Below are positions 13,571 through 60,031 of a stretch of DNA of 64,000 bases, piece after piece. Every line of letters starts with the position of its first letter. The first letter of the stretch is position 1. The notes under the pieces are model-generated. The model saw nothing but the letters and a program-made list of their open reading frames with translations, made no database searches and was not told where the DNA came from. The stretch is from positions 5,208,001-5,272,000 of the forward strand of contig NC_060024.1 of NCBI RefSeq assembly GCF_021134715.1. The letters run 5' to 3'. This DNA is from Daphnia pulex (lineage: Eukaryota; Arthropoda; Branchiopoda; Diplostraca; Daphniidae). The position numbers were made by a program, and so were the translations under genes.

Positions 13571-13910
13571 TTGTTATTCCCTTACGGAAAAATCTCATCA
13601 AACTATATGAGAAATCATATGTTTATTAATGACATCAATGATTTTTTAATAATTTTTGATGATCTCATATATTTCTCATTAAATTGATGAGAATTTTCAC
13701 CCTCATATTTATCATTAAAAGTGTTTAAAATATTTTTGTCTCATTTTATATGAGATATAACCCAATCCGTAGTAAGAAATCAGAAAGAAATCATATAAAT
13801 TTCATGATTTTACCACAGACTTTTCGCATGAGAAATATGCAAGAAACTGGTGATAAATAACCATAAATATCATGATATTTTCTTGAAATAAATCAGTAAT
13901 ATATCATGTA

Positions 13911-14480
13911 TTCTCAGTTTTTAATCATTAATTTCTATTGGTATTTTGTAATGAGATACTTGTATAAAATCATGTGGAAATCAATAAAATGTCATGATTT
14001 TCCCGCAGTTTTTTCGCATAAAAGATCTGCAAAAAATCAGTGATTATTAAGCAGGAATATCATGATATTTTCTTAAAATCAATAAGTAATTTGTCATAAA
14101 TTCTGAGTTTTTAATCATTAATTTCTATTGGTATTTTGTAATGAGATACTTGTATAAATTCATGTGAAAATCAATAAAATCTCATGATTTTTCCACAGTT
14201 TTTTCGCATGAAAAATCTGCAAAAAAACAGTGATTATTAAGCGGGAATATCATGATATATTCTTATAATAAATCAATATTTTATCATATATTCTGAGTTA
14301 TCAATCATTAATTTCTATTGATGTTTTGTGTTGAGATACTTGTATAAAATCATGTGAAAATCAATTTTACCTATGACATTATAAGATTTTTTTGGTTTTC
14401 TTTTATACAGTTTTTTGGCTTAAAAATAACGAAATTTATTATTAAATGTCTATCAGAAATCAGGTTGATTTAGGTGTGAG
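13911..14480. repeat. 190-bp tandem repeats inside TIR element
   Basis: The phrase TTAATCATTAATTTCTATTG recurs at 13921, 14111 and (with changes) 14301, exactly 190 bp apart, with the flanking ATCATGATATTTTCTT and GAGATACTTGTATAAA segments repeated too. A further diverged unit follows near 14537. Confidence 0.75.
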
Positions 14481-15347
14481 ATCATGATATTTAATTATAA
14501 TTATTTTGCATATTATCATTTATTAAGAGCTTTTTATCAATCATTTCTCTAATGCTTTATAGTGAGATTTTTCATTAAAATCATGTGAAAATCAGTTCCC
14601 ACTAAGGAATCAAAAGATTTTTTTGTATTATTTTTACCCAATTTTGGGCTTTAAAATCTTCAAATTCATAACAAAAAGTCAGTAATAATCAGCTACAATT
14701 CAACAGATCAGATGTGAAATTATAACTATTTAATCGTCAATATTTTCTTATGTTTTGTAATGATGTGTGAAAAATCAAGGGAAAATTTCTACATATATGA
14801 CATCAAAATATTTTCTTGTATTCTTTTAATAATACAATCCTAAAAATATCAGTTAAAATCAGCAAATAAATATATAGGCCTACCTGGAATGAAATATTCT
14901 GACTTTAAATTCTTTTTGAACTTTTACATTTTTTATTTTATACCTTTCGTAAATATATGGTAGCTATCTAATTCTCACAAAAATTACGCGATGTTTTTAT
15001 AATCACAAGATAGGCTGGGATAACTATTTTTTTTAACGCGCTAAGTAAATTTGAGTGAAAGTTCTATTTTACTCTGGTGTGTTTTTTTGTGTGTGAATTA
15101 TTCTAAGTCCCGAAATCTGGCTTTTATCTAACTAAACTAACCAATTGATAATATGGTATGTCAAAACGCATCATAGAAATTTTTACTAAGTTTTTTCACG
15201 CGCTAAGTAAATTTGAGTGCAATTTCTATTTGACTCTGGTATGTGTTTTTTGTGTAAATTATTCTAAGTCCCATAACCCTGTTGTTATATCACTAAACTA
15301 ACCAATTTATTAATTTCTCCGTTAAAAAGCTTCAACCATAACATCAA

Positions 15348-15416
15348 TTAGTGGTGTAGTGGTTAGCAGATTGGCAAGCCACCCTGGAAGTCGAGGTTCG
15401 ATTCCTGGTCAGGGCA
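15348..15416 (+). other. tRNA-like module (A box/B box) in TIR element
   Basis: Contains GTGGTGTAGTGGTTAGCA (A-box type) and GGTTCGATTCC (a perfect B box) about 30 bp apart, as in a tRNA. The acceptor strands do not pair, so it is not a functional tRNA gene. It could act as an internal pol III promoter. Confidence 0.6.
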
Positions 15417-15809
15417 ATTCTTTTTTCAATTTATATAATTAAAATCTCATTTAAAAGCGCTCAAATTCTCATTCAAATTTTAGTGAGAAAATCATTAACA
15501 TTTTTGGGGAAAAAGAGAAATTAAGCGAGATTACAGTGAACCCTCAGTCAGAAATCATTATATTTACGTGACTAATAATTTATATTTAGATGAGAAATAA
15601 CATAATTCTCACTTTGTTCACATGAAATTAATGATTAACGGCTGATTTTAAACTTGAAAATGTCCCAAATTCTCATCAAAAGTCATCAAATAAATGATAT
15701 TTTGCTGTTAATCTCACCAAAATATCACGACAAAATGAATGAGTATTAAGTTTATTCTCATGTATTTCTTTATGAGTTTTAATGAGATTTTTCCGTAAGG
15801 GTTGTTATA

Positions 15810-16279
15810 AAAAGATTTAATTATTTTGAATATTTCCCCCCTAGGTGAACGTTTCAGTTTTCGTATTGTATTTACGACAGGCCTATTAGGCCTACTGAAT
15901 TAAATCACTAGGGTCTATTTCATCAATCGTTTAGATTGCGCAATGGTCTAAATATATATAATATTCGCAATGCGACCGATTTGAATTTCCTGTTATTCCA
16001 GATGCTCATGTGTGACTTATTTGCTTCCGAATCAGTGAAAACACAATTTACATTAAATTATATAAATTTATTTTATTTGGGATATAGAAAATTGCTTATA
16101 AGGAATCGCAAAGATAGGCATAATATTTAACACGGTGCTTCGTCCATCTGTATAGCATTAACGGCAAAACCCATTTTGGCATAATATAACAAACAATAAA
16201 TTTGCGGCTGCGGATGATGGTGCTTATAGGGTGCTTATCGTCTCTCACGTTGATCATTCAATTTTTCACGATTGTCGGA
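15810..16279. other. No gene recognised
   Basis: AT-rich flank of the TIR element. The open frame 15936-16130 has no recognisable content. Confidence 0.4.
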
Positions 16280-17350
16280 TCAGAGATTGGAGATCGCTGT
16301 TCAATTTCCTCTTCTTCTTGTAAGTTTTTGGGGTGGACAACCGAACCGAGTAGGCCTATTATAAAATGCCCCAAATATTAGCTGGCGTGGTTTAACTGTT
16401 TTCGTCTTGCTTTGGGTATTATATATCGCGCTAGAATAGCATCCTATCGAGTTTCTTTTTGCTAATTGGCTGACAGAGGTTAAATTTTTCCTGCTACGCG
16501 CATCACATTGCAAGACAATATAAGTATAAGACTTAAAAAAAGGAAGGGGGGAGCATTCAAATATTTTTACCACATTAATATCTTCAATAGACCTAATCCA
16601 AGGGTAATAATAATTTGATGAAAAAATGGCTCACGATGTAGGCTACTCACGACTGAGCGGATGATTGATAGAAATGAACGAACGGTGGGGACCAATAGGC
16701 CTATGCTGCTGGAAGCTTTGTTCAAGATAAACCTTTTTTTTTTAATTCCAATGAAATAGCTCATATAGATTTCTGCCAGCATCTGGTTTTAACTCACAAC
16801 AAACCTAATAAAAGTCGAAAAAACAACAACAATGTAATTTGAGAATCTTGGACACGCGTGCGCGGCTGCTGGATCTGGATGGCCGCTGAACCAGTATAAC
16901 TTTGTATATAAAGTATCCATATATAATAAAAGAACAAGCTTTTGGGGGAGGAGCCTGTGTCTGTCACGGATAATGTGTCAACACAGGCTCCTCCCCCAAA
17001 ATGGAACATGCCCAAACATGCCCAAACAAATCACCACCAGATGACGCAACAACCAGCATCACCACCAGATGTCTATAGCATCGCCGTGATGACGAAATCT
17101 TCAAGTAAGGTACTGGGCAGATTTCCCACGATAAAATCTATTACGGGCAGATGATTAAGCTACAGAAAAGCGAATTGAAAAAGAGTCCGACTTTATACGC
17201 TAGACAAAAGTTCCCCGGATTTGAACGGGGCTCAGGTTGCTCGTAGCCTATATATTTATTATATCTTGGAGGTGGCAGCGCACCAGCAGCAGCACCAGAC
17301 ATTGTGAGCAGCAACGACGATCCCTTGTCTTATTATAATACATGGACAAA
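16280..17350 (-). pseudogene. Partial diverged duplicate of the DNMT3 relic
   Basis: Nucleotide similarity is visible to two separated parts of the neighbouring locus. 16280-16690 matches 17850-18200 (shared TCAATTTCCTCTTCTTCTTG, then matching blocks to the GGCTC..GGCGG segment). 17265-17400 matches 20095-20225 (GGAGGTGGCAGC, CATTGTGAG, AATAAATAAAA). On the minus strand this is a tandem copy lying 3' of the main relic, with the segment between the two matching parts lost or replaced. No reading frame is usable. The intervening DNA holds a perfect hairpin at 16940-17001. Confidence 0.55.
16940..17001. repeat. Perfect 21-bp inverted repeat with 20-nt loop
   Basis: Arms 16940-16960 and 16981-17001 are exact reverse complements (TTTTGGGGGAGGAGCC..), GC-rich in an AT-rich setting, with a 20-nt spacer. 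Possible roles are a small-RNA hairpin precursor, a miniature fold-back remnant or a cruciform. Expression is unknown. Confidence 0.8.
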
Positions 17351-17619
17351 GGAATAAATAAAACTACACCCTCAGTTACAATGCGGCAATAACACGATCA
17401 AAATTTCGTAAAAAATATAACTAGCTATAATAATTGAGAAAAAGAAACTATTTTGAAAGCACGACTTTGTCGACTGACAACATCATGCAGCCATCTGCCA
17501 TCTATTTAGCTCATATATAGTCCATCAGACCATTATATAATATCGTCGTCGAATGAATCATTTAGGCTGTATAATGTACATCCGCGGTTTATTTAGGACC
17601 AACGACACGGACCAACTTC

Positions 17620-20110
17620 AAATCTTCAACGGCAGTTGAAAATGTTAATCAACAGAGACACGGGCAAACTACAATTCATTAGTTCTTGATGTACTTCAGC
17701 TTCTTCCACATGAAACACGTACTCCGGAAACGGCACGGGGAAACACGATCGGTGGCTTGATCCGTCAGAAAAGCGAAAAGTCGCCCGTTTCGTCACTAAT
17801 TCCGTCGCTGTCCTCGTCAGCACTGCCGACGGCTTCGCAAAGTTTCCAACACGGGCGGAGATCACTGCTCAATTTCCTCTTCTTCTTGGCCGTTTTATGA
17901 GTCAGCTGGACGACCGAGTAATGCTCCAAAAAGGCTGGAGCTTTAATTGTTTTCGTCTTACTTCGAGTATATCGCGCTGAAACAGCATCTGGTCGTGTTT
18001 CTCCTGCCAGTTGGCTGGCAGGGGTTGGTTTATGGCCTGTGGGCATCACATTACAATTTACAGTCAGACTTTTATTTTTTTTTAAGATGTAGCCTTCAAA
18101 TATGTTTATACCACGATATCTTCAAGAATCCAAGAGTATTTGGTGAAAAAAGGCTCTCGGCTGGGCGGAAGACTGGAAATGGACGAACCGAATGGTCGTT
18201 GTTGATGAATTGCTCGTCCAATTGCGGATTGAAATTCTGTTCCTAATAAAAGCAAAATTCCTTTAAGCTTTATGTTTGAAATTATTTTTCTAATTTTATC
18301 AAATACCGACACCAGACGATGTTTGGTGGAACCTTGGGCATCCTTCATGTTGAATATCGGTTCCATCTGGAGAAATCTGAAAAAAAGAAAGAAAATGTTT
18401 TTGCTCATCAGCAGATTCCAATACTGAATTTCAAACCTGGAAATGGTTATGTGGTAGCTGGCGACATTTTCCACAGCCCACAAGAGTGGCGTTTCCTCGT
18501 TGTTGCGTTAGATGCAATTCTTGACGTGGAAAAAATCGAAAAAAGCTTCTCCATACTCTACAGAAACAAGGAGAAACTCAGATTCATTGTAAATAATAAA
18601 ATATATTCCAGCGGTTCAATGTACTGACCCAATTCAAGTCGCAGTGAATTAAGGGCGTAGTTGACGGCTCCGAGATTGTCGTGGAGTATGACGACGCAAA
18701 GAGAAGGTTGCCCTTTCTTGGACAGATGTCGATGTGTATAAATTTTGGTGGAGGAAGCTTTTATTTCAGCTGTCGGAGAAACTGTTAAAGAATATTCTGG
18801 AAAATAGCTAGTGAACAAAATAAAATACTTTTAAGGCCCAGTCGGAGCGAGGCTGAAGGAGGCCGTGGGATTATTGTGATGGTGAAACTGGCGCAGAGGA
18901 AGCAAAACCACGGCGTCTTTTGCCTGATGACGGACATCGATCCATCGCCAACCAGCAGCTCCACGCAATACGAGCAAAACACTCTATTAATTATTTAACA
19001 ATAATTCAATTTTTGTTCTTGAAGGAAAAGGTTTTTAGAAAATAATAAAGTTTTACCTGGAACATGAACTATTTTCGCATACCAGACAATCTCCTGTGGA
19101 ACCACAGATGGCGCAATAACTCACCTATTAAAATTGAACGAAGAAATTATTCTATTAAACAATTATTTTCAAATTAAATGAAGCGCTTACGTGAATATCG
19201 GTCCTCGCCAATGCTGCAACTCGTTGTCAGCCAACAGTCAAGTTCATTCTTTAGAAGAAAAAAAACCATCAGTCAGCGCTCATAATTAATTGGGAAAAAG
19301 AGAATGGACTTTATCACCTTCCATTCGCGATTGCATAAACTTCCAAAGAAGAGCGGATGTTCCATACATACGGGCCCATAATTTCTACATGACAACCGAG
19401 ACAGAAGTAATCCATGTCCAAAGTTCCGGCCTTGATCCTGTCCACCAAAACTGTTGGTTGAGTTTTCACGCAAAAATAAAAGATACAATTTGATAGACGA
19501 AGATTTATTACCAATGACGTTATCCCGCGGACCGTAAGTGAGATCATCTTCTCCGGAATGGTTTTTCTTCTTTTCCTTCTTGTTGTTGCTGCCCTGAAAC
19601 ACTGACAGGCTCTTTTTTCTCGTTAGCGATCCTCTTCAACTTGGTGTTGGTGTCTTTGATCCGGTGGTCGATGCTGAAACGTTGCAGCCATTCCGGGAAC
19701 TCGTCCAAGACCACTGGAATTATTTTAAAGAAATATATGTTGATAATAAAGGTTGACGTATTCATAGAAAAATAATTACAATCTCGACTGTTGTTGCTCT
19801 TTGACGACGCCAAGAGTTTGATAGCCCACGTCTTCAATTTGTCAGCCGTGCCTTTAACTAATTTCTTCTGATCTCTGTTAAAGGCGACTACCTGTGGATT
19901 TAAAAAAAAATTAAAAACGTTTGATGTCAAGAACTGGCAATAAAAATTTTTAGTCATTAAAAACCCGCAGGGCTTCCAAGACTCCTCTTTCATAGAGACT
20001 GCTGCAAGCTTGATTATTTAACAGACTGGCCAATCGGTCAACATCTGACACGGCTTTGATGGCCGCCGAACTAAAATATCCAGTAACTAGTCGGTTTTCT
20101 AGGAGGTGGC
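17620..20110 (-). pseudogene. DNMT3-like de novo DNA methyltransferase, degenerate
   Basis: Exon-like pieces occur on the minus strand in the order expected for PWWP-ADD-methyltransferase. A PWWP C-terminal helix region (LNNQACSSLYERGVLEALRV) is at 20110-19965, and a linker exon at 19891-19780 (VVAFNRDQ..) has good splice sites. A Lys-rich exon follows at 19713-19512. ADD zinc-finger parts are at about 19480-19320 (FCLGCHV, MEHPLFFGSLC) and 18980-18890 (CSYCVELLVG, TPWFCFLC). Methyltransferase parts are at about 18730-18610 (motif I region, FDG replaced by LHDN), 18480-18400 (the ENV motif as VENVA), 18370-18320 (MKDAQGSTKHRLV) and a C-terminal end near 17690-17630. The ADD halves are in different frames and the Lys-rich exon also changes frame. 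With motif I altered, activity is very unlikely. Assignment rests on recalled family motifs. Confidence 0.6.
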
Positions 20111-20225
20111 AGCCCACAGTCATTGTGAGTAACAACGATTCCTTTATGGTAATATCGACAAATGTGAATAAATAAAATAACACGAATAACATTATAACAA
20201 TGGCAAGACGATCAGAATTTCTCAA

Positions 20226-21248
20226 ATGATAATTAAAAATTCAGAAAAACAAAAACAAAACAAAAAAAAAACAATTTAATAGGCCCCTATAAAAGCGTGA
20301 CTTACCAGCCATCTAACTTAGTCCAGACGATTGTCCCCAGTCGAATGAAGAAGGAGTTCTAGCATTTACATTTTAACCTACCCTGATCGGTCATTGTTTC
20401 AGCGCTATAATATTTGTCATATCGGTTCATTATATTCTTAATAATAAATAACAGTGGGCTCTATGCCTTAATTATAAAATTGAACCAACAACCGAGCTCG
20501 ATCCATCCCAATTTCTTAAATTAATAGTAAACCTTGAGTCCATGACCCTATCATTAGGCTATATTACCCTAAAACACGAATATAAACGACAAGGACTCAG
20601 AATTATTATACACACGCTTGCTATAATTGGGATATATGAACAATTAGTATAATCTAAGCTATAATGTATATGGAGTTATGGACAGTTATGTTGCAATTAT
20701 AGTAGCCCCATGCATACATAAATTTTTTATCTACGTTATCAGTCTTTACGCGTCAGCCTTTGTTGCAACACAACAGAGGCAAACAGTGATTTGACTTTTA
20801 TCAGTTGATGCATTCATGTCGACATAATTGGTCACACAAAGAAAACTTTAAAATGTCATAAAAATAAAAACCCGGGGGATTTTTTATTTTTGAATATCTT
20901 ATTGATGAATTAGGCAATTTGAAATGATAAAAAAATCGTATCGCTGACACGATACAAAGTTAGATTCGATTTCCTTTCTTTTCCTAAAAATAGGATACAA
21001 CCACCAATGCAAAATAACAGAACCTATTCGATCTTTCGTCGATCCAATGGCTAAGTCGTACCACACCGAGACACTCTTGACTCTTCGTCTTCGTCTGTGC
21101 TTTTTTGTTAAGCGTGACAAGTGGCCAACATCAAAATCACTTGCCGCAAACGAAAGACGACACTAATCTTCGTTTAGAATACGTATGAAATTTCGAAAAA
21201 TAAAATTTTACATTTCTTTAATGTAATGTTAATGTTTTGTTTTTTTAG
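20226..21248. other. No gene recognised
   Basis: About 1 kb of AT-rich sequence with A-runs. The minus-strand frame 20899-21120 is unrecognised. Confidence 0.4.
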
Positions 21249-35469: not shown

Positions 35470-36110
35470 CCCTACTAACACAGCGATGTACCATGGATAT
35501 GACTGCAGCGTACTCCCAAGGATAAGGGAGATACAAACAGCATATCCATGGAATGCTTCATGGTGATCCTTATTTCCCCTTCCCCGCACGTACCATTTGT
35601 ATGTCCCTTGAATATACCGGTTTGTGTATACACAGTATCCTTAAATAACATCCATCTTTGGATATGATTTCTGTCAGAAATTAAAAGATAAAAGTCTACC
35701 CCGAGACTTGAACTACTGACCTTCAATTCCGTAGCTCACCTCTCTAACCATTTGACCAACTGTTCATACATTTAAGGAACAAATGTTTGTGTGTATTGGA
35801 AATAGAGATATTCTTTAGCTTTTTCGTCCACTGTGTACCTTATATGGTTATACTGTGATGCTCATTCTGTGTATGTACCAAATGGTATCACAACAAAATC
35901 ATACCCCCGGGTATATTACTTTGACGTACAATCAGTATATTAATGAATATACGCTGGTGGATCTACGATGAATATTCTTTATTTCATCCCATCCTAGATC
36001 CGAATAAATTTATACCTACGCTATACTACCGCCCCCCAATTGTGACCTGGATGTATTCATCCCATATTAACCTACATCTTACATAAATTGGATGGGCCGT
36101 GTTAGTAGGG
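35470..36110. mobile_element. TIR element with CCCTACTAACAC ends inside the LINE
   Basis: Inverted termini CCCTACTAACAC are flanked by TA on both sides (35468-35469 and 36111-36112). Removing 641 bp plus one TA rejoins the RNase H coding sequence. The interior has several degenerate GGATATGA/ATATCC motifs and one tRNA-like module on the minus strand. There is no coding capacity. Confidence 0.8.
35696..35763 (-). other. tRNA-like module (minus strand) in TIR element
   Basis: On the minus strand it reads AGTTGGTCAAATGGTTAGAG (A-box type) and, about 35 bp on, GGTCAGTAGTTCAAGTC (B-box type). It is not a foldable tRNA gene. Confidence 0.5.
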
Positions 36111-41930: not shown

Positions 41931-42777
41931 ACATGATGCCGACGATGATTGGCGGAGATATAGGACCGGTCGAAATAGGCCCCGACGAAATAGGCCCGGC
42001 AAATAGGACCGGACGAAATAGGACCCTACGAAATAGGCCCACTTTTAAAATATTTTTAAAGCGGTCCTATTTCTCCGTCAAAGTGGGCCTATTTCTCCCA
42101 ATTATTTCTAAGTTCCATAAAGTACTCTGAAATATTTAAAAAATTAATTCGACCTACTCTACATGAGCGAGAAGGCGGAATTATCTGCGAGAGATCCGCC
42201 ACCGTATATATCCATTGCCGTAGCTCAAACCACGATGATTGATTTCACACATTGCCGTTTCGTTTTTCACATGTTAGGCAGCTGATTCCCGTCTTTATTT
42301 TTTGATGAACGTATTCCCCTTTATCTTAACTGTAAAATTCATTTTTTACAAACGTCGTTTTCACTTATTAACTATCGCTAATTTAAAAAAATGAACAAAT
42401 TTCCGTGTTTTCTTCGCCATTTATTTGTTCCGTAGCTCGATCCCCCCTTCAGCGGCTCAGCCTTGAACGCGTCTCCCCCCTCTACCTATGCCAGTACTCA
42501 GGTGAAGTAGGAAATGAACATGTTTGATGAAATAAATCTTACGGATTGATTTCAAACATATCCATAACAATTTAATGTTTTTTTTTTTTAAGCAACAAAC
42601 GCATATCACTTTTAAGTTTCTTGTTTTATGGGGCTGACGCGAGGTGCTGCTCAAGCCAGCCAGAAGGGTGGTCGAGCGGGGGAGGCTGCACGCACTCATG
42701 GGAGAGGGGTGAGTGAAGGGGGGTTTACCTGGGCCATACCATACATGCCCATGTTTTCCCTTCACCATATATGTTAA

Positions 42778-42847
42778 AGGATGGACTAGTGGTTAGCAAC
42801 TCGGGCTATGATTCTCAAGCGCCGGTGTTCGAATCTCGGCCATGTCG
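42778..42847 (+). other. tRNA-like module in left arm
   Basis: GGACTAGTGGTTAGCAA (A-box type) and GGTGTTCGAATCTC (B-box type) at tRNA spacing. The acceptor ends do not pair. Confidence 0.55.
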
Positions 42848-43477
42848 ATAAATATTTTTATTTACAAAATATTTTAGAAAATTAATAGCTCAACAGCATA
42901 AAGCGGTGTGGAACTATCCTGGCGAAATTGATGGTTTTTTCTTTTTTTAATTGATTTAATATACAGCACGAAAAGGAAATTTCTATTATAGTTGAATACC
43001 AAATGTGGTTTTGAAGATTTCCATCTATCGGTGATAGTAGCGTCACTAGCGTGGTTCAATAGCGTCATGAAGATGGCGTCATCTGCTCATCGTCAACTTC
43101 AGCGTTTAATTTACAAATAAGAAATAGAAATCTTATAAAAAAATTAAAATAGCTTCAAGATGTGTACATTTTATTTTTAATCATTTTAAAATTTGAATTG
43201 CAATTTTCGTTACATTTGATCTGTAAGAATTCGATTCTGAATCATTCTCATTTCAAATCGATTCACACACATAGCAGACGCTAACACATCAAGCGTCATC
43301 AATAGCGTGGTCTATGGTGCAATGCTATCACTGGAGTAAGGCGTTTATCTTCTATTCGGGTATGTTAGAGAACTCTTATCATGTTATTTTCAATCTTTAG
43401 TTTCTAATATTGTAATTATCAACTTGTGTGGATAGGTAGCGTCATGATTGGCCTACCCTGATGGCGTCATGATCGCT

Positions 43478-44081
43478 GCTGATTGCCTTTCAAATAGGTT
43501 TTCAGCATTCTGCTTACACCTTTGGCATAGAGTCACATATTTCACAATCCAACATCAATTGGTACCAACAGCAGCCCTTCTCTCCATCATCCAGAAGGGT
43601 CTGAGATCAGTGTTGGAGATGTGTGTGACAATTTTAATATGATGAAATTTATCTACCACCAAATTTTTACTCTTATGTTTTTGTTTTTCAGGATGGTTCG
43701 GAACAACCCATGGAAAGCTTATCACTCATTGATGCTGTGATGCCTGATGTTGTTGCAAGTCGTCAACAGCAAACCCAGAACAAACAGAAACCACAAGTGG
43801 TAAAGACAGAACCACCAAATTCCAATGGAGATGAACCCATGCATTCCAATCGTAAGATAGTCACTACTTTTTTTTGATCCCCTGAACTGCTTACTTATTT
43901 TCCCTTCAACTATTTAATGAAGGCTGGGAAGAGGAAACAGGAGTAGAGATACCTGCCAGCAAATCTACTGTACTTCGTGGCCATGAATCTGAAGTTTTCA
44001 TCTGTCTGCGCCTGAACCCAACAACATTCAGAAGGGTGGAACTGAAGTTCCGAGCAACAAAGATGTCACCTCACTTGACTG
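43478..44081 (+). pseudogene. TBL1/ebi fragment, left-arm copy
   Basis: Three exon-like blocks match transducin beta-like 1, the WD40 co-repressor subunit of the NCoR/SMRT complex. Block 1 (about 43478-43630) holds the LisH-region motifs HSAYTFGIESHISQSNIN and, in another frame, LVPTAALLSIIQKGL. Block 2 (43692-43851) reads MESLSLIDAVMPDVV. Block 3 (43923-44081) reads STVLRGHESEVFIC and, in another frame, VPSNKDVTSLDW. The WD40 propeller beyond the first blade is absent and part of block 3 is deleted. The frame changes make it non-functional. Confidence 0.82.
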
Positions 44082-44297
44082 GTATGTAAGTTGTGCTATG
44101 TAATGCTATGTGTAATGTAATGTGTATGTAAGCAAGTGCTTTTGACGGAAGTGTAAGTTTGGTTTTACTATTTCATTCGATTTGTTTTAATTTTGTTTCA
44201 TTTCAAGGTATTTGCTGGGATAACTGAACAGAAGTTTTAAAGAAAGACAGAAACAATTGACAAGACCCATCTCTTCTAGATTAGTTGTTAGTTGCAG

Positions 44298-44458
44298 ATC
44301 CCGATCTTATCGATTTTATGAAAGGTCTGTTAATATTTTTACTGGAACGTGTAATTTCTTTACTTAATTTTTACACTTTTTTCTCAGGATTTCTAGTTGA
44401 AGCAAAGGAGAAAGTGTTGGCAATGCAGAATGCATTCATGGAACAATTAATCATTTAA
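44298..44458 (+). pseudogene. Last two exons of an unrecognised gene
   Basis: Blocks 44298-44324 and 44388-44458 have good splice sites (CAG before, AAAG/GT between). They join in phase as DPDLIDFMKGFLVEAKEKV followed by LAMQNAFMEQLII and TAA. It is a short amphipathic helical C terminus. The upstream part is cut off by the left arm. I cannot identify the family. It converges on the CCDC22 fragment, 340 bp away. Confidence 0.45.
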
Positions 44459-44799
44459 TTCAACAATTCCAACGTAATACGAAGGAAATCTGATTTATGG
44501 CTTATTTAATAGCTTAGCTTATCGTCGTTAGTAACTTGCATCGTAACGAATTAAATTTTTGGTAGCTTCTTGATTGTTTAAACGAAGTACAAGGTTACAA
44601 TCAATGCATTATAGTAGCGTTGTATAATGTACAATCCACTTAATGGCCACTTAATGAGATGGAATATTGGAATGTTAAACTTTATTGAAGTGAGAAAAAT
44701 TTAATTTGAACAAAGTGAGACTGACTGGAAACAAACTAAGATGAATAATTAAATTTTAGTACCGACTCGTTCTTCTAAAATCTGATTTTCCGTCCGTAT

Positions 44800-46576
44800 C
44801 TATTCGAGGTCACTTTGCAGTCGCCTAATTTTGGTAGCAATATTCTTACGTAATTCGGTCTCCGCCTGATTACGAAACAAACAGCATCATTATTTGACAT
44901 TATTTGACAATAATGCAAACAAACAAACAAAAATTAGCGAAACATACTTGATCTTCTAAATCCTTTATCTCTCGTGACAAGTTGCCAGATTCTTTCACTA
45001 ATTTTTGGATGTCAGAGCAATCAGTTTGCAATGAAATCAAATACTTGTAAATACGCCGGGCAGTCTCATCCGATTTGGCCATCTAATAAAAAAAGAAAAA
45101 GGTAACAACATTTTTTTATTAATAATATCAGCATTTTGACGGGGGTTGGCAACTCCCCAGAATCCTCGTACACCCTAGCCAGAATCTTGTCAGAATCTCA
45201 AGAATCCCTCCAGAATCCCCGGAATCTCATAGAATCTTCAGAATCTCGTAGAATCTTTAGAATCTCACAGAATCCCGTAGAATCCCATAGAATCTCGTAG
45301 AATCTCCAGAATCTCACTAAATTTACCCCCTTTTTTAACTTTAAACTACCCCAAAACCGTCTAAAATTCAAGATATTTTGTGAATTTGGTCTTTGAAAAG
45401 CTCCAATTGTAAAAAATGCACTAGAAATACTGCAAAATGTAAAAATATGGGTTGCGCTAAATCTTTTTAAATTTTCCCTCCTTTTTCCCACCGAATGGTG
45501 GCGTACACATTTTTTCATCTGCTCATGAATGTAAAATGGGGTGGGAAAAATTTATGGTTAAAAACACTTTATTGATAATATGCCAATAATTCCCAGCAAT
45601 TAAAGTTAATTTTCCCCGTATATTTTATTTTAAAATTAATAATCTGGACTTTTAATTCAAACCTATCAAATTTCTAACTATCAGATTACTTCATTCTACT
45701 TGAAACTACAAAACCTATTGTAGCACCTATTCCTATCAGTAAATCATCTTAAAGATAATACGATCTACATGTCTATAAGCTGTATAGAGCATGCCAAAAC
45801 GGAGCTACGCCCACTACGTAACATAGTGCATACTTCTGTACAGAAACTGGGCCAAGGACTAGTGGCGCCCCTAGCGGAATTTCGGGGAAAACTTGTTTCA
45901 GAATCTCGAGGAAATCTCGTAGAATCTCTCAGAATCTCTCAGAATCTCTAGAATCTCTCGGAATCTCTGAGATTCTGAATCCTCGTACACCCAAATTTTG
46001 AGTTGCCAACCCCCGCATTTTGATAATAAGTAATAGATACCCGAAAAATAATTTCATCCGTAACGGTAAACGTACGCTCAACTTTTCCCTGTATTGAATT
46101 GATTTCACGCTGCACACTTTTTACATCTTCAAGCACCCGATGCATTTCTTCATTTTGTTTCTTGACGTTGGCTACGATACTCAGTATTCTTTGAGTATAA
46201 AATGTTCTAAAAAGAAAGAGATACAACTATCTCGTTACTCAAGTAAATAACAAAAGTTTATTACCTTGTTAGTACTGAAGGTGGCATAGATTCGATATGC
46301 GTTTGAAGTTTTTGTATAGTATCTTCTTTAGTACGAATTTCTTCTACAATGCTTCTTAAGGACGTCACTGTATGTTCAAGTGCAGCTTTAAGCTTCTCGC
46401 CTGCACTCTGTTCAGATAAAAAGAAGAAAATCAGAAACAAAAAATATTAATGTAGAGATACTTAATTACATTTTCGTGACGAAGAATTTTAGAACACATT
46501 ATCTTATTTTTATTGATGTTTAAAATGTATTGGCACTAGTTACCTGAATAGCATTCAGGTTCCCAATCTTTTGCCT
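44800..46576 (-). CDS. CCDC22: CCDC22 homologue, 3' part only
   Basis: Five exons on the minus strand join in phase without any break: about 46576-46544, 46407-46265, 46206-46041, 45082-44948 and 44865-44800 (stop at 44802-44800). The coiled-coil sequence (FYTQRILSIVANVKKQ, VQREINSIQGKVERTF, VTDEIIFR, ARRIYKYLISLQTDCSDI, REIKDLEDQ) matches the C-terminal half of CCDC22. That protein pairs with CCDC93 and COMMD proteins in the CCC complex for endosomal recycling. The 5' half is removed exactly where the right arm of the inverted repeat begins. The intron between exons 3 and 4 contains a hAT-type MITE. Its open frame contrasts with the broken TBL1 pieces, so it is a recent capture or still selected. 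I cannot see whether a full copy exists elsewhere. Confidence 0.85.
45140..46015. mobile_element. hAT-type MITE in CCDC22 intron
   Basis: Termini CGGGGGTTGGCAACTC are inverted, with a perfect 8-bp target duplication CATTTTGA (45132-45139 and 46016-46023), as in hAT elements. Near both ends are many degenerate AGAATCTC(GT) repeats of about 10-11 bp. It is 876 bp and non-coding, and does not disturb the flanking splice sites. Confidence 0.88.
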
Positions 46577-46744
46577 TGTCAATTGTTTCTGTCTTTCTTT
46601 AAAACTTCTGTTCAGTTATCCCAGCAAATACCTTGAAATGAAATAAAATTAAAACAAATCGAATGAAATAGTAAAACCAAACTTACACTTCCGTCAAAAG
46701 CACTTGCTTACATACACATTACATTACACATAGCATTACATAGC

Positions 46745-47400
46745 ACAACTTACATACCAGTCAAGTGAGGTGACATCTTTGTTGCTCGGAACTTCAGTTC
46801 CACCCTTCTGAATGTTGTTGGGTTCAGGCGCAGACAGATGAAAACTTCAGATTCATGGCCACGAAGTACAGTAGATTTGCTGGCAGGTATCTCTACTCCT
46901 GTTTCCTCTTCCCAGCCTTCATTAAATAGTTGAAGGGAAAATAAGTAAGCAGTTCAGGGGATCAAAAAAAAGTAGTGACTATCTTACGATTGGAATGCAT
47001 GGGTTCATCTCCATTGGAATTTGGTGGTTCTGTCTTTACCACTTGTGGTTTCTGTTTGTTCTGGGTTTGCTGTTGACGACTTGCAACAACATCAGGCATC
47101 ACAGCATCAATGAGTGATAAGCTTTCCATGGGTTGTTCCGAACCATCCTGAAAAACAAAAACATAAGAGTAAAAATTTGGTGGTAGATAAATTTCATCAT
47201 ATTAAAATTGTCACACACATCTCCAACACTGATCTCAGACCCTTCTGGATGATGGAGAGAAGGGCTGCTGTTGGTACCAATTGATGTTGGATTGTGAAAT
47301 ATGTGACTCTATGCCAAAGGTGTAAGCAGAATGCTGAAAACCTATTTGAAAGGCAATCAGCAGCGATCATGACGCCATCAGGGTAGGCCAATCATGACGC
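46745..47400 (-). pseudogene. TBL1/ebi fragment, right-arm copy
   Basis: Inverted copy of the TBL1 relic at 43478-44081, with the same frame breaks and internal deletion. The gene piece was therefore already broken before the arms were duplicated, or the arms are kept alike by conversion. Confidence 0.82.
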
Positions 47401-47993
47401 TACCTATCCACACAAGTTGATAATTACAATATTAGAAACTAAAGATTGAAAATAACATGATAAGAGTTCTCTAACATACCCGAATAGAAGATAAACGCCT
47501 TACTCCAGTGATAGCATTGCACCATAGACCACGCTATTGATGACGCTTGATGTGTTAGCGTCTGCTATGTGTGTGAATCGATTTGAAATGAGAATGATTC
47601 AGAATCGAATTCTTACAGATCAAATGTAACGAAAATTGCAATTCAAATTTTAAAATGATTAAAAATAAAATGTACACATCTTGAAGCTATTTTAATTTTT
47701 TTATAAGATTTCTATTTCTTATTTGTAAATTAAACGCTGAAGTTGACGATGAGCAGATGACGCCATCTTCATGACGCTATTGAACCACGCTAGTGACGCT
47801 ACTATCACCGATAGATGGAAATCTTCAAAACCACATTTGGTATTCAACTATAATAGAAATTTCCTTTTCGTGCTGTATATTAAATCAATTAAAAAAAGAA
47901 AAAACCATCAATTTCGCCAGGATAGTTCCACACCGCTTTATGCTGTTGAGCTATTAATTTTCTAAAATATTTTGTAAATAAAAATCTTTATCG

Positions 47994-48062
47994 ACATGGC
48001 CGAGATTCGAACACCGGCGCTTGAGAATCATAGCCCGAGTTGCTAACCACTAGTCCATCCTT
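47994..48062 (-). other. tRNA-like module in right arm
   Basis: Inverted copy of the module at 42778-42847, with the same A-box and B-box sequences. Confidence 0.55.
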
Positions 48063-48935
48063 TAACATATACGGTGAAGGGAAAACATGGGCATGTATGG
48101 TATGGCCCAGGTAAACCCCCCTTCACTCACCCCTCTCCCATGAGTGCGTGCAGCCTCCCCCGCTCGACCACCCTTCTGGCCGGCTTGAGCAGCACCTCGC
48201 GTCAGCCCCATAAAACAAGAAACTTAAAAGTGATATGCGTTTGTTGCTTAAAAAAAAAAAAACATTAAATTGTTATGGATATGTTTGAAATCAATCCGTA
48301 AGATTTATTTCATCAAACATGTTCATTTCCTACTTCACCTGAGTACTGGCATAGGTAGAGGGGGGAGACGCGTTCAAGGCTGAGCCGCTGAAAGGGGAGA
48401 GACGCGTTCAAGGCTGAGCCGCTGAAGGGGGGATCGAGCTACGGAACAAATAAATGGCGAAGAAAACACGGAAATTTGTTCATTTTTTTAAATTAGCGAT
48501 AGTTAATAAGTGAAAACGACGTTTGTAAAAAATGAATTTTACAGTTAAGATAAAGGGGAATACGTTCATCAAAAAATAAAGACGGGAATCAGCTGCCTAA
48601 CATGTGAAAAACGAAACGGCAATGTGTGAAATCAATCATCGTGGTTTGAGCTACGGCAATGGATATATACGGTGGCGGATCTCTCGCAGATAATTCCGCC
48701 TTCTCGCTCATGTAGAGTAGGTCGAATTAATTTTTTAAATATTTCAGAGTACTTTATGGAACTTAGAAATAATTGGGAGAAATAGGCCCACTTTGACGGA
48801 GAAATAGGACCGCTTTAAAAATATTTTAAAAGTGGGCCTATTTCGTAGGGTCCTATTTCGTCCGGTCCTATTTGCCGGGCCTATTTCGTCGGGGCCTATT
48901 TCGACCGGTCCTATATCTCCGGCTTCCCCGACGAT

Positions 48936-49813: not shown

Positions 49814-50421
49814 CCCTGGTAGCACGCCTCTATCTATAGGATGTACGTCGCCCATCTTTTGCAGCCGAGTGAGATGTCTTAACCCGACGTCCATAGGATT
49901 GCCTATGTCTATACTAATGTCGCGCTGTAAGACATCCAAATGGGTACGGCTTACAGCCGTCTTCAAAAGACTTAAATTTAAGCAAAAAGAAAAAAAGAAA
50001 CGTTTCTTGATGGGCGCGAAACCACGTTCTTTGGAGTGGTATTCCAGTGCTCTACCCACTACACCACTCTATATTACTTTTTAACTGTGTTTGGTTCAAC
50101 GGCTTTAAATAAATACTAGCAGTTAAAATTATGAAAATGTAAAGTCCTTGTCTTCCTCATCTATCCTGTGGACAGATAATTTGGACATCTCACAGACGTC
50201 ATGTTACGTCTGTCTGTTAAGCGTCTAATTTCTAGACACAAATGGATGTCCGTGATCGTATGAGAAACGTAGATCTATAGGACATCTATACGAAGATAGC
50301 ATAAGGCCGTAGTAAATTGAGTATCCATGTGATATCCAATTTAGGTTGCAGATAGATCAGATTTGATTTAGACATTAAGACATCTATATGATAGACGATG
50401 GATGTAAGTGTGCTACCAGGG
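49814..50421. mobile_element. TIR element with CCCTGGTAGCAC ends and tRNA-like module
   Basis: Inverted ends CCCTGGTAGCAC, 608 bp, flanked by TG on both sides (49812-49813 and 50422-50423). The interior has many AGACATCT/AGACGTC/GGATGT variants and one tRNA-like module on the minus strand. Its first bases nearly match those of the element at 58779 (CCCAGGTAGCAC), so the two are relatives. Confidence 0.75.
50008..50072 (-). other. tRNA-like module (minus strand) in TIR element
   Basis: Minus strand: AGTGGTGTAGTGGGTAGAGC (A-box type), then ACGTGGTTTCGCGCCC (B-box type). The ends do not form an acceptor stem. Confidence 0.55.
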
Positions 50422-52156: not shown

Positions 52157-52380
52157 GATAAGCTCCTCCCGCGTGTTCCTAAACTTTTACATCCATTTAT
52201 TGATGTCCTGCCCTTAACAAAGAAAGTCTGAAAAAAATCAGGAAGTAGCCAACCTCATGGCTACTTAAAAAAATATTCGTTGTCCCCCGTCAAAAATTCA
52301 ATTTTTGGAAACGCCGCAAAAATCACCCTTTTAGATAAGGTTCTCTCACGCGTTCCCAAACTTTCGGTAGCTTCTGTAGG
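52157..52380. repeat. Diverged direct repeat about 180 bp apart
   Basis: GATAAGCTCCTCCCGCGTGT at 52157 recurs as GATAAGGTTCTCTCACGCGT near 52336, both followed by TCC.AAACTTT. Confidence 0.45.
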
Positions 52381-54162: not shown

Positions 54163-54721
54163 ATGCCAAATCACACAAATAACCTTGCAAATTTTCTGTT
54201 TTTTAAGATCGGCTTCAAGAGAATGAACACGATATACATCTATCTGGCTGCCAGGGATGGGGCCCCTCTGAGAGATCGACGGAGGAAAGAATACGTTAAT
54301 AGAGTTTGGGAAATTTTGGCTCTACAGAGCAATTTACAGAATGGCCGGATCACGATACGTGCATTCCTCATGGCGGCTGCCTACCACTTCAATCCTGTTG
54401 AATTTGAATTTGGCGATCAGGATATTGAAGTTATGAATCGCCACCTCAACGAGGTACGTGCGGCCTTTGAAGCCTTATTAGAAGATCCAGTTGCCGTTCC
54501 AGTCGCCGCAGAAGCGCCCGTCCCAGTCGCTGCAAGAAGTGGCCGTCCCAGTCGCAGCAGAAGCGGCTATACCAGTCGCCGTGGTTGCAGCAGAAGGGGT
54601 CAACCCAGCAGCAGTTGTCGCTGTTGAAAAAAATCCGGTGGTTTCAGCCATAATAGGTCGAGGACGAGGACGGCCACCTTTGAATAGCCGAGCCCCAAGA
54701 CATTGGGGAAATAGAGTGTGA
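54163..54721 (+). pseudogene. Unrecognised ORF with Val/Pro/Ala repeats and AT-hooks
   Basis: The ATG frame at 54163 (or at 54223, NTIYIYLAARDGAPLRDRRR) gives a possible helical domain (RVWEILALQSNLQNG, IRAFLMAAAYHFNP). After about 54490 the sensible reading moves to the next frame: PVAVPVAAEA-type repeats and then an AT-hook-like GRGRGRPPLNSR before TGA at 54719-54721. The frame change inside a repeat tract suggests an indel. Not assigned to a family. Confidence 0.45.
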
Positions 54722-55066
54722 AATCATGATCCGGTAGCTGCCGGACCACCAGCAGAAGTAAGGGGAAGACCCCGTGGCTGCCCTCCTGAACAAGGGGCTC
54801 GGGCGTGTGGTCCGGCTCGTGGGGCTCAGCCGCCCAGCCCGGCTGGTGTTGTGGATCAGTCACCAATCCCAAGGGGACGACACCGTGGCCACCCTCCTGG
54901 AAAAGGGGCTCGTGTGCGTTGTCCGGCTCGTGGGGCTCAGCTGCCCACCCCAGGCCGTGTTGTGGATCAGCCTCCCAGACCAGCTCGTATTGTGGATCAG
55001 CCGCCCGTCCTAGCTCGTGTTGTGGATCAGCAGCCTGGCCCGACTCGTGTTGTGGATCCCGAATAG
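54722..55066 (+). pseudogene. RGRPRG / RVVDQPP low-complexity coding relic
   Basis: The frame continuing after the TGA at 54719 stays open to 55066. It has another AT-hook-like RGRPRG and repeated units of the form PARVVDQPP. All six frames are open here because the DNA is a GC-rich degenerate repeat of about 27 bp (GCTCGTGTTGTGGATCAG), so the coding status is uncertain. Confidence 0.35.
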
Positions 55067-55139
55067 CCATAGCCCAAATAGCGCATTTTCTGGATTCAGA
55101 TGGTCCCGGAGATTGAGGTGTCGGAAAAAGATTTTAAAG

Positions 55140-55480
55140 GTTTTTAGCTCTTCAAGAATCGAACTTTATCAATCGACGTGCTAACATCAGAGCAAGATTT
55201 CAAGAAAACCGCCGACTACGCCAGGACGACGATTCCGAAGATGACTTGGAGGAAGAAGCAGATGAGGATCAGGAAGTCCCTTGTCAAGAACTCCCAGAAG
55301 TAAATCACGAGGGCCTCTGTCCAGTGTGTTGGGTAGAATTTTTAACACAATATTGACAGCTTGTGGCCATATTGCACGCTGGTGCTGATTCCGTGATATA
55401 TCTAGAAATCAGTATCATTATCACCAACACAACCGTGGGTCACTGCTCTGCAACTCTTCTATTGACTAGATTCAACCTGA
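55140..55480 (+). pseudogene. RING-like zinc finger relic
   Basis: An acidic stretch (DDDSEDDLEEEADEDQE) leads into LCPVCWVEF and, in another frame, ACGHIARWC, the first half of a RING finger. The distal cysteines are replaced and a TGA follows. It may be the C terminus of the AT-hook protein upstream. Confidence 0.4.
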
Positions 55481-55906
55481 TTTCTTCATGGCGGAAAAGC
55501 TATCCGGTCAGAGTTCTTCGGATTCCAAAAATAAGTTTGTAAATTTATTTAACTATTTACTATTTCTTATTGAATTAATTCTTATCTATTAGGGGACGAA
55601 GAATTGTGAGCCGAATACCCTGAAGTCTACAAAATTATCAACGAGAAATTTAAGAAATTGCTCAGTCTCCCACTTTCCTATCCGTGGACATAGACCTGTT
55701 CCACAAAACGATCTCGATGCCGCTAACGTCTTGTTGGATTTGGGTAATCAACCCTAGAGGTTAAACAATTCTTTCCATATCTGCCCCTAACCTGATGATC
55801 TAAACTAATGATTGAATTATTAAGAGCGTTTGATTGGCTTAGTCATGTCAAATTTCTTAATTTTTTACGCGAAGAAATTCAACTGACAAATAAGTGCTGT
55901 AAATAA

Positions 55907-57830
55907 TCACAAGAATAAATATCGGATTTGGCGAAGTAGTGTAGCAAAAATTATACTGTGAGGGGTAGACACAATAGTGCTCATTCGCGGTTCTTCGTCG
56001 ATCAATCTGGTTTCACGAATGCACTGATGAATCCAATCGATTCCAACGATCCACTTGCCGCTGGCGACTCCGTAAAAGAACTTCAGGGTGCGCTGAGCAC
56101 AGTTTTCTTCGTCCACCTGAACGATGATGTGGGTCACGGCCGAACTGTACGTCAAGGAAATTTCAGCCCCTACGCGCCGAGCCCAATCTTCTACCATCTT
56201 CACCTGCGGACGCTGCATTGTTGGAAAAAAAAATTAGAATACATATGTAATTTTGCGGACTAAAATTTAACATTACCGGAAGCCCGGAACACGTAAGAAC
56301 TTTTTTTTGCATGGTACAGGCTTTGGAGTAGGTGGGTGTGGTGGGGTCGCTACCAGAACGTCATCCTCATCTGGATCGCTCTCCATCACAACAGTTTTGC
56401 TAGCTAAATCCGCACTCGCTTGTTGTGGGAATAGTCGCTGGGGTACGTTCGCAGTAGTTGCTCCATCCGCAGAATGAGACATCGAAGAAATCGGACCGTC
56501 TGTATCGACGGATTTCACGGAAGAGCAGGGCTTCTTCCTCTTGGTTTCCATCTTGTCATCATCACTGTCACTCGAAGACAAAACTCTGGCTCGTTTGAAT
56601 GGCTCAGCAGACATGAACAAATCTTCGCTTTATTCATACGGTTCTCCCACCAAAATGTTTTCATCCCGTAATTGCGCGTCGAGTGATTTCAGTACACTGT
56701 CGATAGGAGGGGCTTTGTCCGGAACTATTAATGTCTGATTATTCATTAACGGATGGTCTGTATTCGATTCCTTGTTTGAGGTCACTGATGCTTCAACTGG
56801 TTCCGTCTGGGTGGAAACTAAAGCAAAAGACAGAGGCGATGGTGGAAAGGTTTGAGTTTCTTTATCTTCAAAACATTTTTGAGTGTGAACGGGCGGATGC
56901 ACCAAAACCGGAGGACATTCCGGGGGAAGGTCAAGAAAAGGACCCAATTTCCCCAATCGAGTGAAAACGATTTGTTGTTTCTTGAATGAACTGATGGGCT
57001 TCCCCGGAACGATCCGACCTTTATGGAAAAAATTCACGTTGCGCCTTCCAGTGCCAGATCGCAGCTCTTCTGAAATGGAGTGACGTCGAAAATCCCTATC
57101 AGATGTTTGAAGATCATGTATAGCAGATCCCAAGGAATTTCGAACTCTGGGCCGAGAAACCGGTGTCAAGTGATAAGCTGTCGAGGGAACACTGACGGGC
57201 TTGTCAAGTTGAGGACTTGGGGCTGATACTGGTTGCAATACATGAATGTTTGATCTGTCCGCCAGAACTGATTCAAATGGTCGTGGTGTAATACATCGAA
57301 CATCTGAAACACAGTTCAGATAGGGTTCGCAGACGTCAACTAGTCGAGCAGAAGTGTCTGAAGATTTTTCCGGAGCTTCATTGGTTGGTAGGGCGAAAGA
57401 ATTTCCAATACTTATAGAAATATTCCTTTCTTCCTCCCCTACGTGACTACTGTTTTCGTTCCGCGAATCTATGAATAATAAATAACACGTAAGAAAATCG
57501 ATTGTCATTTTAATATAAATTGGGTGTACCTTTTGATCGTTCGATTCTGCTAGGAATTTCAATGGGGGGCTTTGACGAACGCGTCAAAGGAGTGATGGTG
57601 GTTGCGATTGACGGCGCTTTAGATGCAGTTGTGTTGCCTAATTCTGGTGAGTAATCCGGCTCTCCTTTGGGTGTTGTAGATGTCGTTGGTTTAGTTTCTG
57701 GTGTGTTACCGGCCGACCGTCAGCGTTTCTTGGCTGGAGGTTCACCAGAACTAATCGGTAGGGCATTCTTTCTTGTGCAACCTCTTCCCCGACCACGTCC
57801 ACCTCGTCCCCTTTAATCTGATGAATAATT
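55907..57830 (-). pseudogene. BRCA1-like C-terminal part with one BRCT domain
   Basis: Read on the minus strand: an Arg/Gly-rich AT-hook-like segment (GRGGRGRGRG, about 57815) is followed by a stop within 30 codons. Next comes a long Ser/Pro-rich exon from about 57470 down to 56274. Its single frame is cut by TAA at 56627-56629 and then resumes as SEDLFMSAEPFKRARVLSSS. After an intron, exon 56214-55907 encodes a BRCT domain: VEDWARRVGAEI, VTHIIVQVD, AQRTLKFFYGVASGKWIVG, DWIHQCI. Trp and Gly-Gly positions match BRCT1 of BRCA1. No second BRCT repeat follows, and the frame ends after a hydrophobic tail. BRCA1 acts in homologous recombination repair with BARD1. With two in-frame stops this copy is not functional as read. 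Confidence 0.65.
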
Positions 57831-58489
57831 TTAAATATATTATTAAAAAACCAAAAAAATAATGAATTGCTATTATTAACTGTTGTGGTATTTCCCTGGA
57901 AGGTGGTGGACTGGGAGCTGAAACGATATCATACGACGATTCTTTGCCAGTACTAGACGAAATATCCACGGGCGAAAAAACTAGTTTAGACGTAGTTTTT
58001 TATTCAAAGGAAAGTGCTTTGGAAAGTGTCCTGGAGCTTTTAATGCTAGGATTTTCACCATTCTCTTCACTGAAGACAGCTAGTCCCAGACAGCACGGTT
58101 TCGTATTTAAGACGTCTTTTAGTCCATCAGAGGGGACCATGCATACCGCATTAAAGACGTCTCGAAGGGGGCGAGTAGGTGGTCCGTTATGGTTTTTATG
58201 TCCCCCCTGACGGGGATATTTCAAGTCTAATATGCGGTTTTTATTGGGCGCTTAACTGGTTCATATAAAGGATATTACAGGACTCATGTTCGTTTTCTTT
58301 TGGGCTTTGATTGGGTTCATAAAAGGACCTAACTGGGATAATACTCGTTCTACTTTGAGCACATGAGGGACATAACTGGGCTAGTGCTGGAGGAAAAAAT
58401 ATTTAATGGAATTTTTTTTTTAAATAAAAAAAATGTCTCAAAAGTTGCAATCATCTTGGTTTATTACATCAATTTGGCAATTAAAGAAT
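57831..58489. other. No gene confirmed
   Basis: Minus-strand frames at 57751-57969 and 58000-58224 may contain exons of the BRCA1-like gene (VSAPSPPPSREIP), but no boundaries can be fixed. The sequence 58240-58440 is low-complexity. Confidence 0.35.
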
Positions 58490-58778
58490 ATACAACTGTA
58501 TAGGCTTGAGATTGGTTAAGGTTAACAAGTATATATAGAGAGAAAAATTGGAATGTCCATTTAATTTCTTCTGGCTTTCGATTTTCGGTGACTGAATGTT
58601 GGAGACCCCCAGCAGTGTGCTTCTGATGGCTCGGTCCAACCTCTTGGATATCAGCTATAGCTGATTGTTGGTGAGCTGTAAACAAAAAATTTAAGGTGTT
58701 AATGGACGTACTGTAATTACATGAAAGAAGTATTCTCACCAGGTGGTAGAAGCTTCCTTCCTTCAGTGCGTTAACCTC

Positions 58779-60031
58779 CCCAGGTAGCACACAGAGCTGT
58801 TACAGACTCCTGTAACCGATCTGTTTCACATACGTGTGAAACAGATCCGTATCAGACTTGTTACATATCTGTTTTACAGGAAATTTGTCTGGAATTTCTC
58901 TGTTTTAAAGGATTTGGTTAAAGTTTGTTTCACAGATCTGGAACAGATCTGTTATCTTTCTGTAATACATATAACTGGTTTTTAACTGTACTATAGACCT
59001 GTTACAGATCTGTTTTTTACTTGAGAAAATTGTTTCTGATTTAGCTATGTTTCCCATGTTTGTCACTTGTCTGTTTTTACTCTGTAGAAAGACATTCTTT
59101 TTTTCTTCTGTATTACAGGTATGTCACATGCATGTTTTTACTCTGTATTACCGAGTACAATATGTTTCTGTTCTGTGTCTGTACTCCAGGTCTGGTACGG
59201 GTCTGTATTTCCCTTGTAAGACATGAGTCAGTAATAATCTGTTCTGAGTCTGTACCCCAGGTATGGTACAGGTCTGTATTTTCTATGCAAAAATTAGTTC
59301 AGTGATTATCTGTTCTGTGTTTGTGCCCCGGGTGTGTACGGGTCTGTATTTCCCTTGTAACACCTATAAGTCAGTAATCATCTTATCTGTGTCTGTATCC
59401 CAAGTATGGTACATGTTTGGATTCCCAATGGAAAACTGAATTAAACGTTTTCTTATATGTGTAATATCACTGCAATACCATGCAGTAAGAAGTTACACTC
59501 TAATAGTCAATGCAGGCCTAATGGCTATGAGTTTAGTTTAGTAGGCCTTCTCGAACAACAACAATAGCTGTTTATCCACCGGACGGAGAAGTATCACCTA
59601 AATAGGTATAATAAAGACTTGTAATTGGTGTGGGGCCAATCTTGGTCTTGTTACTATTGGAAGAGACCAGTGGTAGTCATATGTAGCAATCAGTTTCGTG
59701 AGAGAGACATGTCAGACTGTTTGCTGAATGTACAAGTGTAAAACTGTGAAATATAGATCATTATGAAATATATCTAATATTAATTATCGAATTACGGTAT
59801 AGTGTTTAGTGTACTGGCTTGTGAACTCAGAGATTGATGGTTCGGTACCAGGGGTAGGCAAATCTTTTTTTTCTTGAAAATCTGTTTTTGGTCTGTAAAT
59901 GGTGATCCCGTTTTACGGATCTGTCACAGACCTGTATGACAGTCTGTAAAAGTGTGACACTACAAACAATTTACAGACTCTCAGAAACAGATCTGTAACA
60001 GACCTAAAACAGAGTCTGTGTGCTACCTGGG
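58779..60031. mobile_element. TIR element with CCCAGGTAGCAC ends and tRNA-like module
   Basis: Inverted ends CCCAGGTAGCACACAGA, 1253 bp, flanked by TC on both sides (58777-58778 and 60032-60033). The interior is a dense field of ACAGATCTGT/CTGTTACAG/GGTCTGTA variants resembling the terminal CAGACTCTGT. One tRNA-like module lies about 80% along. It is inserted in a coding exon of the minus-strand gene. Confidence 0.78.
59792..59859 (+). other. tRNA-like module in TIR element
   Basis: ACGGTATAGTGTTTAGTGTA (A-box type) and GATGGTTCGGTACCA (B-box type) at tRNA spacing. Not a foldable tRNA gene. Confidence 0.5.

Follow-up and report, generated by a model that had tools for sequence, protein, structure and literature searches.

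A common design of CCC-ended inverted repeats, 2-bp target duplications and tRNA-like modules in transposable elements of Daphnia pulex

Results

Four CCC-ended families at the locus

The stretch analysed here, referred to as the window, comprises 64,000 nucleotides of the Daphnia pulex genome (assembly GCF_021134715.1, contig NC_060024.1, here C8, C8:5208001-5272000). A first reading of its letters, the original prediction, had singled out four elements of different sequence and one design, with CCC at the start, GGG at the end, a 2-bp flanking repeat beginning with T, an interior filled with end-like motifs, and exactly one tRNA-like RNA polymerase III (pol III) module. For these elements, designated E1 to E4, we checked the ends, the target-site duplications (TSDs), the copies, the modules and the empty sites, with copy searches run over the 133-Mb, 13-contig assembly of this one genome. 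In window positions they are as follows.

E1, 13579-15801, no strand assigned: 2,223 bp, non-coding, CCC...GGG, TSD TT, at least 32 genome rows
E2, 35470-36110, no strand assigned: 641 bp, CCC...GGG, inside the RNase H region of a long interspersed nuclear element (LINE), TSD TA
E3, 49814-50421, no strand assigned: 608 bp, CCC...GGG, TSD TG
E4, 58779-60031, no strand assigned: 1,253 bp, CCC...GGG, with many internal CTGTTACAGA-like repeats, TSD TC

Terminal inverted repeats (TIRs) of ~12-24 bp, opening with CCC and closing with GGG, lie at exactly these coordinates, as the predicted design would have it, and all four elements proved to be multi-copy families. Full-length copies span the query from the first to the last base, and the best other copies are 96-100% identical. 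The genome BLAST rows, which include fragments and are all lower bounds, number at least 32 for E1, 46 for E2, 42 for E3 and 49 for E4. Among the E1 rows there are 15 full-length at 97-100% and 1 at 91%. Three E1 copies (the window copy and two elsewhere on C8, within 275 kb) are 100% identical with equal bit scores and lie in different flanks, which shows recent mobility.

Evidence for the ends comes from these genome copies, because a scan for CCC pairs (at least 12 of 14 matches plus a 2-bp repeat) did not discriminate the window from its reversed control, giving 7 and 9 pairs, respectively, with pairs inside long inverted repeats counted too. A search for further CCC pairs with a TSD, filtered for known termini and for pairs in longer inverted repeats, returned none in the window and in those fetched loci that measure 1,000 nt or more (flanks of only 1.5 kb); it missed the fifth family described below, which spans two of the loci.

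The terminus CCCWRSTARCA is common to E2, E3, E4 and the fifth family, E5, while that of E1, CCCTTACGG, has only CCC and T in common with them. The difference between termini had therefore been overstated, being true of E1 alone. End-like internal motifs are clear in both E1 and E4 and weak in E3; none was called in E2. The interior of E1 also holds a 190-nt tandem unit. No open reading frame (ORF) of 150 or more amino acids lies within E1-E4; the sole one starts within the final two bases of E2.

Target-site duplications and empty sites

An exact 2-bp duplication flanks 72 of the 78 full-length copies tested over E1-E4: the window copy and 8 of 10 other copies examined for E1, the window copy and 20/20 others for E2, 26/29 for E3 (25/27 by event, two E3 pairs being duplicated loci), and 16/17 for E4, with one partial E4 match left out. 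The repeats TT, TA, TG and TC of the window copies were thus confirmed, and the rule that the duplication begins with T was refuted. Among 71 tabulated duplications (one duplicated locus dropped), 15 of the 16 dinucleotides occur and 26 (37%) are T-initial, against a window background of 29%, which makes the rule a small-sample effect. AT accounts for 13 of the 71 and TA for 10. A weak palindromic preference is seen at the target, where A at -3 and C at -1 have their mirror image on the opposite flank.

Of 50 queries made by joining the flanks, two of them duplicates of others, 8 found contiguous paralogous empty sites. All 8 concern E3 or E4, and the sites lie in repeats inside the same locus or a duplicate of it. 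For E3 the sites are at L002 (100% over 238 nt, gapless), L009, L012 and L026, with the duplicate pair L021/L022 reaching only 76%; for E4 they are at L032 (97% over 238 nt, gapless) and L040. The E2 empty site (C10:7863722-7863918) is 98% identical over 197 nt, and the filled halves overlap on it by exactly TA. Across the joined E2 flanks the LINE has a single open RNase H frame, which agrees with the clean insertion at 35470 that had been read from the window. Alignment of empty and filled sites therefore supports the 2-bp duplication for E2, E3 and E4. TIRs, TSDs and empty sites together argue for cut-and-paste movement by a transposase supplied in trans.

A tRNA-like module in each element

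E1 module, 15352-15405, plus strand: A-box TGGTGTAGTGG, 32-nt gap, B-box GGTTCGATTCC, T-run 15 nt on; 396 bp to the right end
E2 module, 35704-35758, minus strand: A-box TGGTCAAATGG, 33-nt gap, B-box AGTTCAAGTCT, TTTT 10 nt on; 234 bp to the left end
E3 module, 50012-50066, minus strand: A-box TGGTGTAGTGG, 33-nt gap, B-box GTTTCGCGCCC, T-run; 198 bp to the left end
E4 module, 59795-59849, plus strand: window copy decayed, other copies TGGTGTAGTGG-33-GGTTCGATTCC plus T-run; 182 bp to the right end

As predicted, an A-box/B-box module at tRNA spacing is present in each of E1-E4. The boxes stand 32-33 nt apart and are followed 10-15 nt on by a run of four or more T; the end of the B-box lies 396, 234, 198 and 182 bp from the nearer terminus in E1 to E4, and all modules read outward. 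A module with a T-run arose in 3, 1, 0 and 1 of 400 dinucleotide shuffles of E1, E2, E3 and E4, respectively. When the window outside the elements was divided into 43 tiles of 1,200 nt, 1 tile contained such a module; this tile sits in a large palindrome, whose second-arm module is not counted in its own tile. Looser modules lacking a T-run occur in the window at 5882, 49260 and 51919, and there is one such in the reversed window.

The module stretch is kept in 67/67 aligned full-length copies (21 of E2, 29 of E3 and 17 of E4), and 62 of these pass the test for both boxes and the T-run (E2 19/21, E3 27/29, E4 16/17). The boxes of the window E4 copy are decayed and those of other E4 copies perfect; the window copy was missed in the copy-wide test, where it was scored on another alignment, and passes in the window scan. 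Over the whole genome, 35 places carry the strict module pattern (16 E1, 9 E4 and 10 other, by sequence) and none the reversed pattern.

The modules appear to be tRNA-derived promoters and are not tRNA genes, since the tRNA model fits below its cut-off without an acceptor stem and the other scans call none of them. On the E4 copy L041 the model aligns in register over the D, anticodon and T arms at 17.2 bits, the best score, against a cut-off of 29. Rfam reported no tRNA at its gathering threshold, and ARAGORN called none in the window and none in 18 of 19 loci. Its 10 calls are all in L009, where an E3 copy has entered a cluster of tandem tRNA genes. Predicted folding of the module RNA is unremarkable except for E2 (z -2.7).

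According to the original prediction, a pol III transcript could serve as a mobilisation intermediate or capture signal. Intact A- and B-boxes with a terminator in young copies are what transcription-coupled mobilisation would lead one to expect, but the T-run lies inside E1-E4 and should stop the RNA there, so that the predicted transcript of ~90 nt would contain neither end and could not be the mobile form. Precise 2-bp insertions with empty sites, as well as E4- and E3-ended copies that have no module (see below), likewise oppose this role for the transcript, and we consider it very unlikely.

A fifth family with two modules

E5, C8:7046849-7048351: 1,503 bp, CCC-ended, nested in an E4 copy, TSD TA

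E5 was discovered by looking for modules in flanks, and its family is large, with 214 genome rows. The TSD was checked in this one copy; the alignment to E4 is taken up again 124 bp past E5, leaving E4 positions 194-255 unmatched. E5 carries two modules, inverted and reading outward, 301 and 312 bp from the ends, so "exactly one module" does not extend to it. Their sequences match at 83% over 53 nt and show no similarity outside this stretch.

The left part of E5 resembles a tandem unit of ~222 nt at locus L113, where each of the E5-related units has a tRNA-like module.

The common design of CCC-opening TIRs, a 2-bp duplication and a tRNA-like module is thus real in E1-E4 and recurs, without the T-runs, in E5.

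Modules outside CCC elements and CCC elements without modules

Several observations weigh against the module being a working part of these elements. Neither E5 module has a T-run within 40 nt, which lowered our confidence slightly. Four of the 10 other strict-pattern places were fetched, with ~1.1 kb upstream and 0.4 kb downstream, and in this range they show no CCC/CCT pair with a TSD and no E2-E5 terminus; the remaining six lie at C6:6383436, C6:7047110, C6:7148706, C8:213585, C8:398042 and C10:3548870. Around the modules in L036 and L055, too, no CCC pair convincingly encloses them within 1.5 kb. Some members have good ends and no module: a 4,154-bp E4-ended element on contig C3 with perfect ends and the TSD AG, and a 433-bp E3 deletion form with the TSD TT that is without the module region (one event, in a duplicated region). 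Module columns are no more conserved than the rest of the element, varying more in E4 and E2 and slightly less in E3, and in the comparison of subfamily consensuses the module is never among the most conserved tenth of windows. Divergence between these consensuses, module against whole element, is 0 versus 3.5% in E3, 3.6 versus 7.3% in E4 and 7.3 versus 3.6% in E2. As the columns show no excess conservation and the subfamily comparisons disagree, we claim no selection on the module.

Flanks and other loci totalling 228,560 bases contain 21 looser modules, 8 of them with a T-run; they include real tRNA genes and relatives of E2, E4 and E5. A palindrome of ~7 kb occupies window positions 41953-48921; its ends are not CCC, and each of its near-identical 2.3-kb arms holds a tRNA-like module with a T-run (42782, plus strand; 48057, minus strand).

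It follows from the 4,154-bp element that there is no strict need for the module in cis; the module is neither required nor exclusive to CCC elements. The same facts give substance to the explanation that common tRNA-derived repeats, such as the heads of short interspersed nuclear elements (SINEs) or tandem satellite units, were inserted into the transposon ancestors and have been copied along as passengers without function. We regard this as a strong rival, with a chance only somewhat short of even, because of the module-less members, the ordinary conservation, the modules outside CCC ends (the palindrome, L036, L055, L111, L112 and L114) and the sampling, which was not blind: E1-E4 were picked by a reader aware of the modules, and E5 was found through its own. 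The likeness of the left part of E5 to the tandem unit fits this explanation as well. On the other side, all five CCC families of this small set carry the module outward near an end, with a T-run in E1-E4, no SINE-like body or tail was seen attached to the modules, and the window tiles outside the elements give a background of 1/43.

Comparison with known systems

E1-E4 have the traits of miniature inverted-repeat transposable elements (MITEs), namely TIRs with a precise TSD (72/78) in multi-copy, non-coding, homogeneous families. They resemble MITEs and other nonautonomous DNA transposons with a 2-bp TSD, for which Repbase uses 'DNA2'-style names, in being short and non-coding, with TIRs, a precise TSD and many near-identical copies. 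They differ from the usual members of that class in the tRNA-derived pol III-type cassette of each family and in a TSD of almost any dinucleotide.

With tRNA-derived SINEs they have in common an A/B-box promoter of tRNA origin without an acceptor stem. SINEs, in contrast, have no inverted repeats, a variable and longer TSD and a 3' tail, and they move through RNA; the TIRs, precise 2-bp TSDs and empty sites rule this class out. Tc1/mariner elements duplicate TA only, a dinucleotide seen in just 10/71 cases, and the varied 2-bp duplications of E1-E4 do not match the TTAA target of piggyBac. CACTA/EnSpm and Plavaka elements (the CMC group) resemble our families in having subterminal repeats and a TSD of 2-3 bp. 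The difference lies in the ends, which are CAC, TGT or CATCA in that group (PMC12730594) and CCC in E1-E5; CAC...GTG termini are absent from E1-E4.

ISL2EU elements (PHIS superfamily) are like our families in their 2-bp TSD, their animal hosts and their occurrence in the same genome. As described in PMC4482050, they encode a transposase and a YqaJ protein, have the TSD AT with flanking A and T, and carry repeats that usually start with GG; in all these respects they differ from E1-E5. Hits to PF13613 (HTH_Tnp_4) and PF09588 (YqaJ) occur together, convergent, at five loci (L063-L067), which are ISL2EU-type transposons. At L063 and L067 the terminal repeats are ~200 bp long, with TATAGACC near the ends and not CCC; L064, L065 and L066 have no clear terminal repeats and so provide no test of the ends. 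We rejected ISL2EU as the partner of E1-E5, given that AT makes up only 13/71 duplications, 15 dinucleotides are used, the ends are CCC and those of L063/L067 are different. That E1-E5 are MITEs derived from the ISL2EU transposons of this genome would suit the 2-bp TSD class and the five loci with both domains, yet neither the AT target and usual GG start given in PMC4482050 nor the ends of L063 and L067 fit, making this origin extremely improbable.

No transposase for E1-E5 was found in genome-wide searches that covered the two transposon gene families PF13613 and PF09588 only, and with this coverage no known superfamily was matched. Ten ORFs from longer E3- or E4-ended loci (L061/L056, L062, L069 and L070) gave no Pfam family above the cut-off; ASD1 reached 15.4 of 25 bits in one of them. 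L062 is 3,110 bp long and E3-ended, with the flanks AG/AA and no TSD; L069 and L070 are 5-kb stretches that start at E4-like ends and do not reach the other end. A module scan of these three and the C3 element found none, save one weak match in L070. L069 and the C3 element have a coding-like stretch in common, the protein of which has four genome rows; one of these is the query, and two belong as separate pieces to a single locus. Beside the E4-like end of L070 lies a broken multi-exon gene (1980-3240); the protein collection holds three relatives, up to 85% identical, and its product may be SAMD3-like.

Three further observations may be added. The E4-ended C3 element and its duplicate contain an open frame (L061 837-1181; L068 794-1138) with a putative resemblance to an HSP70-family stress protein, possibly a captured gene piece. 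An element at window positions 61559-62551 has 445-bp inverted arms at 99% identity, and a relative of the arm occurs in the 4,154-bp C3 element. At ~7370-11780 of the window, two copies of a ~2.3-kb unit with identical ORFs form a tandem duplication.

Discussion

Taken as a whole, the data are best explained by E1-E5 being non-autonomous cut-and-paste (MITE-like) families, each with a tRNA-derived pol III-type cassette, to which we give a probability of about 0.6. The combination of TIR ends, a 2-bp mark and a tRNA-type promoter is unusual; among the literature matches listed, the titles and abstract openings describe no DNA transposon with a tRNA-derived module.

Under this explanation, a DDE-type transposase supplied in trans would cut the target with a 2-bp stagger. 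The common terminus CCCWRSTARCA suggests that E2-E5 probably depend on one transposase lineage and E1 on a related one. The cassette would be a type-2 pol III promoter, provided in E1-E4 with its own T-run terminator and directed outward 182-396 bp from the end, and its short RNA would not be the mobile form. Rather tentatively, we suggest that it may recruit TFIIIC/TFIIIB and keep the end of the element open or insulated, thereby helping it to escape silencing or to be reached by the transposase. A fuller proposal seems to us doubtful. In it the families form one lineage with a shared transposase, and the outward cassette, close to one end or to both, would be a working part under selection, turning each element into a tRNA-gene-like insulator or a site of open chromatin in favour of mobility or silencing escape.

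Should the cassette work, DNA transposons would have adopted tRNA-type promoters as SINEs did, for another purpose, and TFIIIC biology would be tied to cut-and-paste mobility. If the proposed explanation is true, the common design would also be a marker for a transposase whose 2-bp target duplication has almost no restriction on its sequence. The young E1 copies, 100% identical on C8, make the role of the cassette testable.

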